46,066 nt of DNA from an uncultured Prevotellaceae bacterium (GTDB lineage Bacteria > Bacteroidota > Bacteroidia > Bacteroidales > Muribaculaceae): positions 1 through 46,066 of the forward strand of contig ONKD01000016.1 in the NCBI GenBank assembly GCA_900318345.1, given 5' to 3'. Below are positions 1 to 46,066 of this stretch, piece by piece. A program made the translations under genes and the position numbers. Below the pieces are notes generated by a model. That model was not told the origin of the DNA. It ran no database searches and was given only the letters and a program-made list of their open reading frames with translations. Each line of letters starts with the position of its first letter. The stretch's first letter is position 1.

Positions 1-1
1 G

Positions 2-337
2 CTCAAGTTCTATGCTACGCCGTCATTCAGCATTGACTTTGGACCTCAAGTTGGCTTCAATGTTTATAGCAAAGCCACGGCTGCCTACAGCGGTTACAAA
101 GCAACTCTTGATATTAAGGAGATGACCAACTTAGTTGACTTTGGTGTGGGATTAGGTTGCACATATAACTTGACCAATAATGCTTTTGTTCAGGCCCGTT
201 ATAATCTTGGTTTGACCAAAGCATTCAAAGGTGGCAGCGAAAAGTTTGACTATGAGGGATATGACATCGAACTGAGTGGCGATTCTCCCGACGTCAAGAA
301 CGGCAACATCCAGATTGCCTTCGGTATGAAGTTCTGA
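2..337 (+). CDS. Outer-membrane beta-barrel protein, C-terminal part (partial)
   Basis: This is the 3' part of a gene whose start lies before the window. The frame is open from base 2 to a TGA ending at 337. The readable 111 residues align by eye with the C-terminal half of the complete gene at 614: both have FGPQVGFNVYSK or a close variant, VDFGVGLG, TYNLT, NAFVQARY and a final NGNIQ.AFGMKF. Alternating short hydrophobic stretches and an aromatic last residue (Phe) are typical of small Bacteroidetes beta-barrels that sit in the outer membrane and need the C-terminal signal for BAM insertion. The function is unknown. Compared with its neighbour it carries an extra loop of about 15 residues (GGSEKFDYEGYDIELSGD). 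It is probably one copy of a tandem duplication. Confidence 0.8.
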   Translation, partial: LKFYATPSFSIDFGPQVGFNVYSKATAAYSGYKATLDIKEMTNLVDFGVGLGCTYNLTNNAFVQARYNLGLTKAFKGGSEKFDYEGYDIELSGDSPDVKNGNIQIAFGMKF

Positions 338-613: not shown

Positions 614-1192
614 ATGAAGAAAGTTTTTGTGTTGATTGCTGCTGCAATTGTGTGCATGAGCGCTAACGCTCAAGTTCAGTTTGGTGCAAAAGTCGGTGTT
701 GACGCTACCCACTTCTGGGGCAAGGACACGGAGCACGGCATGAAAATCGGTTATCAGTTCGGTGCTCTCATGGAGTACAAGTTCAATCCTCACTTCGCCA
801 TCGCTCCCGAAGTCGTATTTGCTTCTCAAGGCGGGAAGTTCAATATCTATGAAGCTGACAACAAGAAGGTTGACAACACCTTTACAACCAACTACATCAA
901 TGTACCCCTGATGTTCAAGTGGTATGCCACTCCCAATTTCAGCTTAGATTTGGGTCCTCAAGTTGGTTTTAATGTATACAGTAAGTACAAGGTTGGTGAC
1001 CTCGATGCTGAAGACATCAAGGATATAACCAAGGGTGTTGACTTTGGTGTTGGCTTGGGCGGCACCTACAACCTGACAGAGAATGCATTTGTCCAGGCCC
1101 GCTACACCATGGGTCTGACCGATGCCTTCAAGGGTGAGTTGACTGAGGCCAAGAACGGCAACATCCAGTTGGCCTTCGGTATGAAATTCTGA
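614..1192 (+). CDS. Outer-membrane beta-barrel protein (PorT/OmpW-like small porin family)
   Basis: 192 residues. An N-terminal signal peptide (about residues 1-19, MKKVFVLIAAAIVCMSANA) is followed by a beta-rich domain that fits the outer-membrane beta-barrel family common in Bacteroidetes. Features are amphipathic strands such as FGAKVGVDATHFWG and IAPEVVFASQGG, glycine-rich turns, and a C-terminal Phe. The predicted place is the outer membrane. No enzyme motif is visible, and the substrate or partner is unknown. The ATG at 614 is preceded by an AAAAGGAAAG purine stretch that can serve as the ribosome site. It is a paralogue of the partial gene just upstream and has its own terminator at 1215-1260. 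The 275-bp spacer before it contains the upstream terminator; no clean TAnnTTTG promoter box was found there. Confidence 0.85.
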   Translation: MKKVFVLIAAAIVCMSANAQVQFGAKVGVDATHFWGKDTEHGMKIGYQFGALMEYKFNPHFAIAPEVVFASQGGKFNIYEADNKKVDNTFTTNYINVPLMFKWYATPNFSLDLGPQVGFNVYSKYKVGDLDAEDIKDITKGVDFGVGLGGTYNLTENAFVQARYTMGLTDAFKGELTEAKNGNIQLAFGMKF

Positions 1193-1380: not shown

Positions 1381-1413
1381 TTTGTTTAAATCAAAAAAAC
1401 ATTTGTACATTTG
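1381..1413 (+). promoter_or_regulatory. Bacteroidetes-type promoter of the small RNA gene
   Basis: TTTG at 1381-1384, a 21-bp spacer, and TACATTTG at 1406-1413 match the Bacteroidetes housekeeping sigma consensus (TTTG, 17-23 bp, TAnnTTTG). Transcription should begin near 1420. No plus-strand protein gene follows; a hairpin terminator lies about 30 bp beyond the expected start. Confidence 0.8.
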
Positions 1414-1418
1414 CATGT

Positions 1419-1489
1419 GTGTTTTTCATGGTATTAGATTTAAGGTTTGTGGAGGCTGTCGTGAGACATCTTCCACTTTTTTATTTTTT
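1419..1489 (+). ncRNA. Putative small RNA, about 70 nt
   Basis: A consensus promoter is followed after about 30 nt by a 12-bp stem (1449-1460 with 1465-1476, one mismatch and one G-U pair, GTGA loop) and a TTTTTTATTTTTT tail, which is a complete intrinsic terminator. Between them lies CATGGTATTAGATTTAAGG (1428-1446), which has no credible protein reading. I recall similar 'GGTATTAGATTTAAGG plus GTCGTGA hairpin' segments between genes in other Bacteroidales, but this memory is unchecked. The T tail overlaps the last codons of def on the other strand, so the RNA also ends antisense to the def mRNA 3' end. The exact 5' end is inferred. Confidence 0.6.
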
Positions 1490-2053
1490 ACGTCTTGCAG
1501 GTGCCACTTTGCAACGATAGTCACAAGAGACTTTACCCTTAACCATATTGTTTAATTTAGTACGAATAAGCTGTTTGCGAATTGGCGAGATGCGGTCCAC
1601 AAACAGCGTCTTCTCGAGGTGATCACACTCGTGCTGGACCACGCGAGCCAAATAGCCCTCAATGTCCTGATCATGTTCCTCAAAATTCTCGTCCTGCCAA
1701 TGCAGATGGATTTTCTCGATACGCTGGACATTCTCATGAATGCCCGGCACACTCAAGCAGCCCTCCTCGCGTGTAGTTGAAGGAGCTGACTCGTCAATGG
1801 TGATTTCAGGATTAATGAGCACCATATTCACCCCTTTTAACTCGGGGAAATCCTCAGCAAGTACATCGACATCAATATAAACGATGCGTGCATTTACGCC
1901 CACCTGAGGAGCAGCGATGCCTATACCATTGGTGTGATACATAGTTTCCTTCATGTTGGTGATGAGTTCCTGCAACCCAGGATAATCGGGGGTCACTTTG
2001 ACATTCTCGGCGCGCAACACGGGATGACCGTAGATATAAATAGGTAAAATCAT
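1481..2053 (-). CDS. def: Peptide deformylase
   Basis: 190 residues. It removes the formyl group from the N-terminal methionine of new proteins at the ribosome, using a bound Fe2+ or other metal. All three signature motifs are present: GIGIAAPQ (43-50), EGCLS (97-101, Cys99 a metal ligand) and QHECDHLE (140-147, His141 and His145 as metal ligands, Glu142 catalytic). The length is normal for the family. It is the third gene of a minus-strand cluster after rho and ruvX, with 12 bp between ruvX and def. The C-terminal codons (ARRKK) lie in the T-rich tail of the terminator of the opposing small RNA at 1419-1489. Confidence 0.96.
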   Translation of the reverse strand: MILPIYIYGHPVLRAENVKVTPDYPGLQELITNMKETMYHTNGIGIAAPQVGVNARIVYIDVDVLAEDFPELKGVNMVLINPEITIDESAPSTTREEGCLSVPGIHENVQRIEKIHLHWQDENFEEHDQDIEGYLARVVQHECDHLEKTLFVDRISPIRKQLIRTKLNNMVKGKVSCDYRCKVAPARRKK

Positions 2054-2508: not shown

Positions 2509-4596
2509 TTAGCCCTGTTGCATTGTGAGCAGGAATTCCTCGTTGTCGCGGGTGCGATCCATGCGCTCCTTGACAAATTCCATGGCCTCGACCGATGTGC
2601 GGTCGCTCAAGAAACGACGTATGATCCACATCTTGTTGAGCGTGTCCTGAGGCAACAACAGGTCATCGCGACGCGTGCTTGATGCCATAACATCCACAGC
2701 GGGGAAGATGCGCTTGTTGGACAGCTTGCGGTCGAGCTGCAACTCCATGTTACCAGTACCCTTAAACTCCTCAAAGATAACCTCGTCCATCTTGGAGCCG
2801 GTCTCGGTGAGTGCAGTGGCGATAATGGTCAAGCTGCCTCCGCCCTCGATGTTGCGGGCCGCGCCAAAGAAGCGCTTGGGGCGCTGCAATGCATTGGCAT
2901 CCACACCGCCAGTCAGGATCTTGCCCGATGCGGGAGCAATCGTGTTGTAAGCACGTGCCAGGCGGGTAATCGAGTCGAGCAGGATCACCACATCATGGCC
3001 ACACTCGACGAGCCTTTTAGCCTTACTGAGAACCAAGTCAGCAATCTTGACATGACGGTCGGCCGGTTCATCAAATGTCGAAGCAATCACCTCGGCATGC
3101 ACGCTACGTGCCATATCGGTCACCTCCTCGGGGCGCTCGTCGATGAGCAGGATAATCATGTAAGTCTCAGGGTGGTTCTCTGATATCGCGTTAGCTATCT
3201 CCTTCAAGAGCATCGTCTTACCAGTTTTGGGCTGGGCGACGATAAGTCCACGCTGTCCCTTGCCTATGGGCGAGAACATATCTACCACTCGCTGGGAAAC
3301 TGTGGGATGAACCTTGCTCACCAAATCAAATTTCTCATCGGGGAACAAGGGCACCAGATGTTCAAATGGCACACGGTCGCGGACATAAGCGGGAGTGCGG
3401 CCATTGATCAGTCTGATCTCACTCAAGGGGAAGTATTTCTCTCCCTCCATCGGTGGACGGATGCTGCCCTCGATAACATCGCCGGTCTTTAGACCATAGG
3501 CTTTGATCTGTGACTGCTGAACATAAATATCGTCAGGCGAAGTCAGGTAGTTATAATCGCTTGAGCGAAGGAATCCATAACCCTCAGGAGCAATGTCGAG
3601 GACTCCCTGAGCCTCGAGGATGCCATCAAAATTATATGGTTGCTCGAGATAAGGATTGACTTCAGCAATCTGTTGCTGCTGTTGCTGTTTATTCTTGCGC
3701 TTTTTATTTTTGCTTTCCTTGACTACCTTGGGCTCATGAATGACGATGGGAGCCGTAGCAGCTTCCTCGGCCTGACGACGGCGCTCTTCCTCGGCGCGGC
3801 GCATAGCCTCCTCACGCTCCTGCTGGGTGCGTGGTTTAAAGGTAGTGAACGAACCGCCTGTATTGAAGAAGGAGTTGAGAGAGACACCTTCACGCTCACG
3901 AGGCTCGGTAGCGGGAGCAGGTTTCTCGACGATGATATTTTCCTGTTGCACAGGCTCGTCAACCACTTCGGGTTGTTGTTCAATAGGTTCCTGAGGTGTT
4001 TCGACTGTCTCTTCCAAATTGTCGAAAGGCAACACTGGTTCTTGAACAGTCTGCTTGGGTTTACGGCCACGGCGACGTGGTGTTTGTTCTGGAGCAGCCT
4101 GTTCAACGGGCTCCTGGACCTCGGGAACTGGAACAGATTCTTCTTGCGACTTTTCTTCAGCTATTTTAGCAGCTTCACGAGCAGCTTTTTCAGCAGCCGA
4201 AGGGCGTCCACGCTTGCGCTTGGGAGGCTCTGGAGCGGCTTCTTGCTCTTTTTCAACAGCAACCGGAATTTCTTCAGGCATTTCCTCGACTACGGGTTTT
4301 ACCTCAGCCACATTTTGCTCGTTATTATTCTTTTTATTTTTACTCTTGGTTTGAACGGCATCATCTTTGGTTACTTCATTGCCGTTAGCTTTAGCGGCAG
4401 GCTGGCGGATGCGTTCACGGCGGCGCCGGCCTGGTTCGGGAGCAGAATTGGCAGCTTCGGCTACTGCTTGTTGGTCAAGCACCTCATAGACCAAGGCATC
4501 GTGGTCAGTTGATTCCACACGCTTAATGCCCATAGACTTGGCTACATCACGGAGCTGCTCATCGCTCATTTCATTGAGTTGATTGATATTATACAT
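2509..4596 (-). CDS. rho: Transcription termination factor Rho with a long disordered insert
   Basis: 695 residues from the ATG at 4596; a longer frame to 4638 is possible, but [15 protein letters not shown] is the usual Bacteroidetes beginning. Rho is a hexameric RNA helicase that ends transcription. Domains in order: Rho_N helix bundle (about 1-45); a 260-280 residue low-complexity segment rich in Glu, Pro, Gln, Lys and Arg with [14 protein letters not shown] and [10 protein letters not shown]-hook-like runs; a cold-shock RNA-binding domain (about 331-400, GYGFLRS); and a RecA-type ATPase with Walker A AQPKTGKT (about 454-461), Walker B VVILLDS and the [20 protein letters not shown] region. 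E. coli Rho has 419 residues, so the insert explains the extra size. In Bacteroides thetaiotaomicron the equivalent disordered region has been reported to drive Rho phase separation. Its promoter is at 4739-4770, giving a leader of about 135 nt. Confidence 0.96.
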
Positions 4597-35871: not shown

Positions 35872-38570
35872 AAATCCGTTTATATTTGAGATTGATGGCC
35901 CTTGCTGGACTGCTGTCGGCTGGTCTGCCCATGAGTTCTCAGACTATTATACCCGCTGATAGCGCTACCCGTGTGATGTCACCCACCGTGGTCACCGCCG
36001 AGCAGGTGAGCCAGCAGCAGGTCACCAATCCTCTGGAGGCTATCACTGGACGAGTTGCTGGCGTGACCATCCAGAAAAGCAACAACGGCGCTGCAGCAAT
36101 GAATGCTGTGCGTGTGCGCGGCACCACATCGGTCACGGGAGGCAACGACCCGTTGATTATCGTTGACGGCGTGTTTGGCGACCTGAGCACATTATCATCG
36201 ATTTATCCGTCAGATATCGAGAGTTTCACGATTCTTAAGGATGCCAGCGAAATTGCCCAATATGGCTCGCGTGGCGCATCGGGTGTCATCGAGGTAGTTA
36301 CCAAGAAAGGCGACGCCCATCGAGCCACCATCACCTATAACGGCAAGGTGGGTCTCACCCACGTTAGCAAAAACCTCAAGATGCTCAACGCTGACGGTTA
36401 CCGCGATGCCATCAGAACTCTGGGTAACATGCTCATCGACAAGGGTTACAACACCGATTGGCAGAAGGCTATCCAGCAAACCGCCTTTATTCAAGATCAT
36501 CATGTCGCTTTCATGGGCGGTGGCGACCATTCGGGTTACCGCGTATCGCTCGGATACATGGACCATGACGGGGTCATCCTGCACGACAAGTTACGCAACT
36601 TGACAAGCAACATGAACATGTATCAACGCATGTTTAACGACCTGTTGACCATTGAGGTGGGCATGTTTGGCAACGTGCAGAAAGGGCTAACGGCAGTTTA
36701 CGATGTGCAGAAGACCTTCTACTCGGCACAGGCATGGAATCCCACATTCGGCACCGAGCGAAACAGTACTGGAGGTTGGGACGGCTTCACTTACGCCAAC
36801 CAGATCAATCATCCGCTGGCACTGATGGACAGCCGCACCCAGGACAAGACAACCCACCTGAGCACCCATGCCAAGCTCACATTCAACCTGACACCCAACT
36901 GGACACTGTCCTTCTTCGGCGCTTACAGCCACAACGAGGTCGAGACGGCACAATTCCTGCCGACAAGCATCTGGAGCGGCGGCAAGGGCTACCGCAGCAG
37001 CGCCAAGACCGAGTCATGGCTCGGCAATGCCATCGTGACATGGGACAAAACGCTGGGCCGCAACCATTTCAACGTAATGGGGCTTGCCGAGGTTGAGCGC
37101 AACATCCACACGGGATTCTACACCACCACAACAGGTTTCTCCAGCAACGATATCGGCATTGACGCTATCCAAGCGGGTGCCGTGACGCTGTGGGACGGCA
37201 CAGGCAGTTACCGCAAAGCACCTTCACTGGTTTCATTCATGGCACGAGTCAACTATGACTACGACAACCGTTACTCATTGACCTTCGCGGCCCGTACCGA
37301 CGGCTCGTCAAAGTTTGCCAGCGGCAACCAATGGGGTTTCTTCCCCTCGGTCTCGGCTTCATGGAATATAGGTAACGAAGCGTTTTTAAGCGATGTGGAT
37401 TGGCTCGATGACCTGAAGTGGAGCGTTGGCTACGGTCTAGCGGGTAATCAAGGTGCAGTGGACAGTTACATGGCTCAAAATGTCCTCACGCCTGCGGGCA
37501 TCGCTCCAGTGGGCCAAAACATGGCGGTAACGCTCGATGTCCTGCTCAATGCCAACCCTGACCTCAAATGGGAAGTGAAGCACAGTTTCAACACCGGATT
37601 GAGCGCGGCTTTTTTGGGCAATCGCATCATCACCTCGCTTGATTTCTATGTTTCCAAGACTTCCGACATGCTCTACCTCTATAATGTGGGCGTGCCGCCC
37701 TTCAGTTACAACAAGTTGCTCGACAATCTGGGGTCGATGCGCAACAGCGGTGTCGAGTTGGCACTAGGTTTCTCGCCGCTCACCTCACGCGATATGGAAT
37801 TGAATATCAACGCCAATATCGCCTATCAGTACAACAAACTGCTGTCCTTGAGCGGCTATTATATGGATTACTGGCTGGAGGCTCCCGGCGAGGTGGACCT
37901 GGTCAACCTGAACGGAGCTGGTTTCCACGGTGGCAACAATCACATTGTTTATCAGATGGTAGGTCAACCCCTGGGCGTGTTCTACCTGCCGCACTGCACG
38001 GGCCTCAAGAGTGACGGGCATGGTGGCTATGTGTATGAAATCGCCGACCTCGACAATTCGGGCGACATCAACATCGCTAATGGCAAGGATCGCCGCGTGT
38101 GTGGCCAAGCGATGCCTAAGGTGTTGCTAGGCAGTAACATCAATTACCGTTTCAAGCACTGGGATGTGACCTTGCAGATCAACGGTGCCTTTGGACACAA
38201 GATTTACAACGGCACCGCCTTGACCTACATGAATATGACCAGTTTGCCGGGTTATAATGTTTTGGCCGACGCCCCTGGACGCGCAATCAACGACCAGACC
38301 GCAACCGACTACTGGCTGGAGCGCGGTGACTATATAGACTTTGACTACCTCACCCTGGGCTGGAACGTACCCTTGAGCAAGGCGCTGATGCGCACCATCA
38401 GCCGCCTGCGCCTGGCGCTCACAATAGATAACCTGGGCACCATCACTGGTTATTCGGGTCTGACACCCGTCATCAACAGTTCTTCGGTCAACGGCACCTT
38501 GGGTGTCGATGACAAGAACATCTATCCCGTTACCCGTTCTTATCATCTGGGAGTCACATTAACCTTCTAA
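35868..38570 (+). CDS. SusC/RagA-family TonB-dependent outer-membrane transporter, short form
   Basis: 900 residues. A signal peptide (about 1-24) is followed directly by the plug domain: EAITGRVAGVTIQKSN, MNAVRVRGTTSV, NDPLIIVDGVFGDL, IESFTILKDASEIAQYGSRGASGVIEVVTKKG (about 124-155), then a barrel ending in a strand with final Phe. Members take up large ligands across the outer membrane with a SusD lid. The usual N-terminal carboxypeptidase-regulatory-like domain and the long VVVTGYGTQKK plug start are missing, which explains the length (typical members have about 1000). It begins inside the rsmD stop and is followed 11 bp later by its SusD partner. No sugar-degrading enzymes are nearby, so the ligand is not obvious. 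Confidence 0.93.
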   Translation: MKIRLYLRLMALAGLLSAGLPMSSQTIIPADSATRVMSPTVVTAEQVSQQQVTNPLEAITGRVAGVTIQKSNNGAAAMNAVRVRGTTSVTGGNDPLIIVDGVFGDLSTLSSIYPSDIESFTILKDASEIAQYGSRGASGVIEVVTKKGDAHRATITYNGKVGLTHVSKNLKMLNADGYRDAIRTLGNMLIDKGYNTDWQKAIQQTAFIQDHHVAFMGGGDHSGYRVSLGYMDHDGVILHDKLRNLTSNMNMYQRMFNDLLTIEVGMFGNVQKGLTAVYDVQKTFYSAQAWNPTFGTERNSTGGWDGFTYANQINHPLALMDSRTQDKTTHLSTHAKLTFNLTPNWTLSFFGAYSHNEVETAQFLPTSIWSGGKGYRSSAKTESWLGNAIVTWDKTLGRNHFNVMGLAEVERNIHTGFYTTTTGFSSNDIGIDAIQAGAVTLWDGTGSYRKAPSLVSFMARVNYDYDNRYSLTFAARTDGSSKFASGNQWGFFPSVSASWNIGNEAFLSDVDWLDDLKWSVGYGLAGNQGAVDSYMAQNVLTPAGIAPVGQNMAVTLDVLLNANPDLKWEVKHSFNTGLSAAFLGNRIITSLDFYVSKTSDMLYLYNVGVPPFSYNKLLDNLGSMRNSGVELALGFSPLTSRDMELNINANIAYQYNKLLSLSGYYMDYWLEAPGEVDLVNLNGAGFHGGNNHIVYQMVGQPLGVFYLPHCTGLKSDGHGGYVYEIADLDNSGDINIANGKDRRVCGQAMPKVLLGSNINYRFKHWDVTLQINGAFGHKIYNGTALTYMNMTSLPGYNVLADAPGRAINDQTATDYWLERGDYIDFDYLTLGWNVPLSKALMRTISRLRLALTIDNLGTITGYSGLTPVINSSSVNGTLGVDDKNIYPVTRSYHLGVTLTF

Positions 38571-45742: not shown

Positions 45743-46066
45743 AACGGTTTATTTCTAGTTGGCTTCAGCGCTCGGGGTGTTGAAGACAAGAAAGACTAAA
45801 AAGACAATTGATATTTAAAAAAAGCTGATTGCGCTGATTTTCACTGACTTATATACAATAGTCAGCGAAAATTAGCTTCCTAAGTTATTGTGCAAGTATT
45901 TTGATGAAGATTTTCGTCAAAATGTGCAATATTATTGAATTCGGCACAAAAGTCACCTAATCTGCCGCTTGAAACGCTCGTCGGGGCTCTGCCCCTTGCC
46001 GCTTGGCGCTCCCTGATGTGTTTTTCATGGATTTGGGCTGCCGCATTCAAACGGCTTGACCGCATA
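45743..46066. other. Spacer without a clear gene at the window end
   Basis: 324 bp. It contains a long imperfect hairpin (45833-45876), a second inverted repeat ATTTTGATGAA-gatt-TTCGTCAAAAT (45899-45924), and a GC-rich tail (about 45980-46020) with GGGGC-tct-GCCCC. A 61-residue minus-strand frame (45880 to the window edge) is Arg- and Ala-rich and matches no family I know. It may be part of a repeated element that continues beyond the window. Confidence 0.4.
45833..45876. terminator. Hairpin after the M6 protease, possible terminator
   Basis: GCTGATTTTCACTGAC (45833-45848) pairs with GTCAGCGAAAATTAGC (45861-45876), a 16-bp stem with two mismatched or wobble positions and a 12-nt loop. It is 90 bp after the M6 stop. 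The T tail is weak, so it may instead be a repeat unit. Confidence 0.45.

Follow-up and report, generated by a model that had tools for sequence, protein, structure and literature searches.

A divergent FopS-type small RNA gene predicted beside def in Muribaculaceae, a family without a detected RRM_1 protein

Introduction

The small RNA FopS (RF04319), a regulator through which gut Bacteroides control their sugar uptake, was described in 2025 in Bacteroides thetaiotaomicron, which carries 14 copies of it (PMC11697453). There it represses the translation of susC near the start codon in a seed-dependent manner, and its 5′ part is bound by the RRM-1 protein RbpB, which acts as an antagonist (PMC11697453). 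FopS was presented as part of an RbpB circuit, its consensus comprises 35 nt and its conservation is reported within Bacteroidaceae and one phage (PMC11697453). Our literature search found no report of FopS in Muribaculaceae, and Rfam may already contain FopS sequences from this family.

Results

The window analysed here is a DNA stretch of 46,066 nt (contig ONKD01000016.1), whose host we infer to belong to the genus Sodaliphilus, family Muribaculaceae. For positions 1381-1489, an initial annotation had claimed a small RNA gene that stands alone: a transcript of about 70 nt, a promoter and a terminator belonging to it, and no protein frame. The following features are found there:

1381..1413, + strand: promoter, with TTTG (-33) at 1381-1384, 21 bp, and TACATTTG (-7) at 1406-1413
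1419..1447, + strand: unpaired 5′ region, FopS R1′ seed (RF04319 alignment positions 1-29)
1449..1476, + strand: terminator hairpin with GTGA loop (from folds and covariation on 32 sequences)
1477..1489, + strand: terminator T tail, T6-A-T6 (from the sequence), covering the last 9 nt of def
1419..1489, + strand: predicted FopS-type small RNA (RF04319 match at 1419-1485)
1481..2053, - strand: def-like (peptide deformylase) gene, convergent neighbour, 190-aa ORF

Promoter, core and GTGA hairpin occupy the positions that had been claimed for them, as confirmed in the sequence and in the fold. The RNA is predicted to start near 1419, and GGTATTAGATTTAAGG (1430-1445) lies inside its unpaired 5′ region. 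The hairpin consists of 7 pairs, a 1x1 mismatch, 4 pairs and the GTGA loop; the fold of 1419-1490 has a free energy of -16.8 kcal/mol (z -3.16), and none of 200 dinucleotide shuffles was equally stable. A simple terminator scan found nothing and left the hairpin at 1449-1476 unflagged, perhaps owing to its mismatch. No supported protein frame runs across the RNA, the plus-strand ORF being a mechanical 61-aa TTG ORF (1370-1555), and the protein-coding reading was dropped because that frame lacks support. By eye, a separate hairpin with a T run near 1213-1258, which the scan did not flag, seems to belong to the upstream ORF (614-1192), so the small RNA is not the 3′ end of this ORF. Together with 1-337 (+), the ORF at 614-1192 (+) forms a tandem of related outer-membrane-like ORFs (59% identity, residues 101-192).

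At default thresholds, an Rfam search of the window returned no match. In E-value mode, RF04319 aligned over its full model to 1419-1485 with 53.6 bits (E 1.6e-7), just below the gathering cut-off of 56 bits, which is why we file the RNA as a predicted divergent FopS homologue and not as a certified Rfam member. Within the first 29 nt, 28 match the printed B. thetaiotaomicron FopS consensus. The idea of a new family of widespread small RNAs with an unknown role falls with this match, as the RNA belongs with FopS, for which repression of susC translation is known in B. thetaiotaomicron (PMC11697453). The claim of a stand-alone gene is borne out by the RF04319 match and by the conservation of the promoter, and judged from sequence the segment is a convincing candidate for a small RNA gene.

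Conservation was assessed at the best-scoring model-found loci of the genus, family and order samples and at the loci of an exact 33-mer (seed plus TTTGTG), four sets that overlap in genomes. The 33-mer occurs in 51 genome-contig stretches, one of them from Candidatus Sodaliphilus aphodohippi (L103; Muribaculaceae). The 27-mer GTGTTTTTCATGGTATTAGATTTAAGG is exact in 26/30 genus, 29/29 family and 27/29 order loci. Just upstream of the RNA start, TAnnTTTG is present in 30/30, 29/29 and 29/29 of these loci, beginning 11-13 nt before the start in all 88, and within 18 nt in all 50 of the 51 33-mer loci with enough upstream DNA; in the window at large it occurs in 0.0036 of the 18-nt stretches. The -33 box varies much more, with TTTG at 19-22 bp in 8/30, 11/29, 4/29 and 37/50 loci (genus, family, order and 33-mer set). 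Among 32 distinct window-type copies, 98.1% of 320 stem cells are paired (43-65% in slid controls), and five of the ten stem pairs show double-sided changes, the compensatory pattern that had been predicted for the stem; the set includes L100, which is not linked to def, and relatedness inflates the pairing and covariation counts. The first 33 columns of alignment A1 are invariant by construction, its rows having been chosen by the exact 33-mer, and were left uncounted.

At E <= 0.01, RF04319 matched 60 of 61 genomes of the genus. In the family sample it was found in 147 of 147 genomes, covering all 26 genera (E <= 1e-3), and in the order sample in 64 of 295, spread over 39 of 178 genera and 22 families (E <= 1e-4); the family and order samples comprise genomes at least 90% complete. 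Among 14 control genomes, only Bacteroides ihuae matched. The core is thus found at many Bacteroidales sites far beyond close relatives, in agreement with the initial annotation, which had suggested similar segments elsewhere in the order and had named a lack of such conservation as a refutation. A copy above the RF04319 cut-off is present in 23/61 genus, 139/147 family and 57/295 order genomes. The Rfam cut-off therefore misses a lineage, with only 23 genus genomes above it where 60 match. The Candidatus Sodaliphilus aphodohippi genome holds matches at C169:2559-2626 (54.2 bits) and C220:7204-7276 (40.7 bits); places and scores are identical in G043, a genome listed in the same genus as the window, and this identity is the basis of our host inference.

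The genome to which the window belongs has six RF04319 matches at E <= 0.1, only two of them at E <= 1e-3. One is a short FopS-type copy at C44:67169-67241 (41 bits). Two others, on C74 and C41, are parts of longer RNAs. In these, a FopS-like start leads into a GTCG hairpin that has no T run, and a near-fixed element then precedes the second hairpin, which carries a T tail; in Rfam, both gave sub-threshold FopS matches and one also matched BTnc231 weakly. Such two-part small RNAs of about 150 nt (L002:1511-1662(+), L003:1371-1530(-), L217-L246) share a near-fixed element containing AATGGTATTAGAAGGTTAATTAGTTAAGCAATCC. Their second element was found in 17/18 genus genomes and in 0/129 other family genomes (reversed control 0). 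A FopS-like seed with TAnnTTTG upstream is present at 28 of the 30 fetched loci (33 places listed), the exceptions being L243, which has no recognisable seed, and L222, which begins near a contig end. From sequence, this longer FopS relative appears to be restricted to the genus and is worth following.

The exact FopS seed also occurs in 17 IMG/VR contigs (L145-L161), with TAnnTTTG upstream in 11 of the 17 (L156 starts at the end of its locus), and 12 of 14 scanned contigs score above the RF04319 cut-off. On one viral contig (L145:3821-3922(-)), the seed follows the 3′ end of a tRNA-Arg gene (3850-3922) by 2 nt; this copy comes with a hairpin and a T run of its own, lacks the usual promoter box and stays below the cut-off. 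Its RNA may be released through tRNA 3′ processing. Two further candidates were rejected: L005 is unlike FopS by eye and has no Rfam match, and L203 carries a short seed-like stretch, likewise without Rfam match.

We consider 1419-1489(+) likely to be the gene of a divergent FopS-type small RNA with its own sigma-ABfr-type promoter and intrinsic terminator, which would repress translation starts, probably without RbpB. The promoter, the seed, the covarying hairpin, the FopS homology and, for almost all examined copies of the lineage, the constant position next to def are computational observations.

The seed is complementary to CUAAUACC-AUG-AAAAAC, a sequence that alone fits the starts of many MK-type proteins. 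Pairing was evaluated at 16 of the 17 SusC genes of the window's genome that exceed the TIGR04056 cut-off, one being truncated. Their starts gave a mean z of -0.36 (n=16), compared with 0.06 for 100 other ORF starts (one-sided p 0.02, uncorrected). In genome G060, which has three SusC genes among 552 ORFs, the corresponding p was 0.15. Over all 552 ORFs of G060, starts paired slightly better with the seed than gene interiors did (z <= -2 in 26 vs 12; Wilcoxon p 7.5e-4), an excess that start composition alone can yield. These comparisons, read by analogy with B. thetaiotaomicron, point weakly to SusC as a predicted target. The window itself holds a SusC-type gene at 35979-38567(+) (TIGR04056, 504 bits); between its start and the seed, the pairing energy is -16.0 kcal/mol (z -1.26), a value that is suggestive only.

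Near-exact seed complements (<= 3 mismatches) number 17 in the window's genome vs 14 for the reversed pattern, and strong complements at gene starts were rejected as a signal on this control. The three of these 17 places with 0-1 mismatch are FopS-type copies. Most other seed-complement places open frames shorter than 60 aa; those with frames of at least 105 aa (L205, L209, L215) were discarded as gene starts, being internal to longer frames. An identical near-match to the seed complement with an identical upstream flank lies at two contig ends, window 46020-46036(-) and G000:C35:31-47(+), which suggests a repeat where the assembly broke.

Searches with PF00076 (RRM_1) gave no match in the window's genome and none in the 147 family genomes, the same genomes that all contain FopS; this absence refers to one Pfam profile, which does not separate RbpB from other RRM proteins. 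Matches were obtained in Bacteroides ihuae among the 14 controls and in 198 of the 295 order genomes. In the order sample, 38 genomes have both FopS and RRM_1, 26 FopS only, 160 RRM_1 only and 71 neither (raw counts that ignore kinship, with both thresholds leaving some false negatives). These cross-counts, including the 26 genomes with FopS and no RRM_1, indicate that the two are not tied to each other. Since RRM_1 was found in none of the 147 family genomes, FopS in Muribaculaceae probably works without RbpB: judged from sequence, it would either have no RRM_1 antagonist or rely on another protein.

The same data bear on a rival reading, in which the conserved 5′ region is mainly a protein-binding site (for a protein not of RRM_1 type in Muribaculaceae) or a decoy, and mRNA pairing is secondary. 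The exact 27-mer is longer than the conserved stretch that a pairing seed commonly requires, RbpB does bind this part of the RNA in B. thetaiotaomicron, and the SusC signal is weak. However, the seed is unchanged in Muribaculaceae although RRM_1 is absent there, and seed-dependent repression has been demonstrated in B. thetaiotaomicron (PMC11697453). We regard this reading as unlikely, if still the strongest of the competitors.

Downstream, the RNA converges with the ORF 1481..2053(-), which we take to be def, encoding peptide deformylase. Its stop codon TAA occupies 1481-1483 on the minus strand and the hairpin lies outside the gene. The initial annotation had placed the terminator inside the end of def and let the transcript end antisense to it. 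Because def ends at 1481, this holds for the T tail only, which overlaps the stop and the last two sense codons (about 9 nt), whereas 4 nt separate the hairpin from the def stop. A def homologue accompanies the RNA in 50 of the 51 33-mer loci; 48 of these homologues are encoded on the other strand, 64-251 nt downstream of the RNA 5′ end, and the outliers are L123 (at 728), L142 (at 6337) and L100, which has none in its locus. From this constant position we conclude that the def-linked copies form an anchored orthologous lineage. Relatives of the tandem outer-membrane-like ORFs lie upstream in many def-linked loci.

Such an arrangement could also mean a cis-acting antisense or convergent-transcription element controlling def, to which both the shared 9 nt and the steady distance to the gene would lend themselves. 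Yet the overlap is tiny and is absent in several loci, where the def alignment starts 85-251 nt away from the start of the RNA; it is the seed and not the overlap that is under sequence constraint, and outside the def-linked lineage a def homologue is found for only 2 of the 35 listed copies (L071 and L079; ~3-kb loci), about 1.2 kb away. Given the short overlap and these two of 35 copies, def control is improbable as the main function, and we assign this reading a very low likelihood. That the hairpin is only a def 3′ terminator acting from the minus strand, with no plus-strand RNA, is hardly credible. Its place 4 nt past the stop codon of def and a fold that forms on both strands would allow for this, but the minus strand shows no T run after the hairpin, and promoter and seed are conserved on the plus strand.

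Discussion

In the preferred reading of a FopS-type small RNA, transcription would start at the RNA's own sigma-ABfr-type promoter and end at its own intrinsic terminator. By analogy with B. thetaiotaomicron, the unpaired 5′ region would then pair with translation-initiation regions of mRNAs for SusC-type glycan transporters or related proteins, and this pairing would block ribosome entry; in Muribaculaceae it probably proceeds without the RRM-type antagonist RbpB. More broadly, we lean towards viewing FopS as an order-wide regulator independent of the RbpB circuit. With FopS found in every sampled Muribaculaceae genome and RRM_1 proteins in none, the nearly invariant 5′ region would be maintained there either purely through pairing with mRNAs or by some other RNA-binding protein yet to be described; Sodaliphilus would have elaborated FopS into a lineage anchored at def and a two-part RNA confined to the genus.

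Two other Rfam families resemble the window RNA in part. GibS (RF04182) shares the 5′ seed region, and the window scores 30.9 bits (E 0.0082) against its model; its cut-off is 115, and its 142-nt model includes a second seed, R2, whereas the window RNA has about 70 nt, so that membership was rejected. BTnc231 (RF04180) has a similar 5′ region and the GUCGUGAGAC hairpin. Its model spans 154 positions with more hairpins, and the window match is not significant (16.6 bits, E 0.26), far under the cut-off of 80.4, which rules out membership here as well.

With FopS, the window RNA shares the match over the full-length model, the sigma-ABfr-type promoter and a layout of an unpaired 5′ seed stretch followed by one intrinsic terminator hairpin, without R2 as judged from length. 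It differs in its stem (GTGGAGG/CTTCCAC instead of the stem of the RF04319 family), in its conserved place beside def, in a copy number of six matches (E <= 0.1) compared with the 14 copies of B. thetaiotaomicron, and in a host family without a detected RRM_1 protein. New here are the lack of any RRM_1 match in 147 family genomes that have FopS and the finding that the distribution of FopS does not follow that of RRM_1 across the order sample. A family in which 147/147 genomes carry FopS and 0/147 RRM_1 offers a natural test both of what RbpB contributes and of the RNA working alone.
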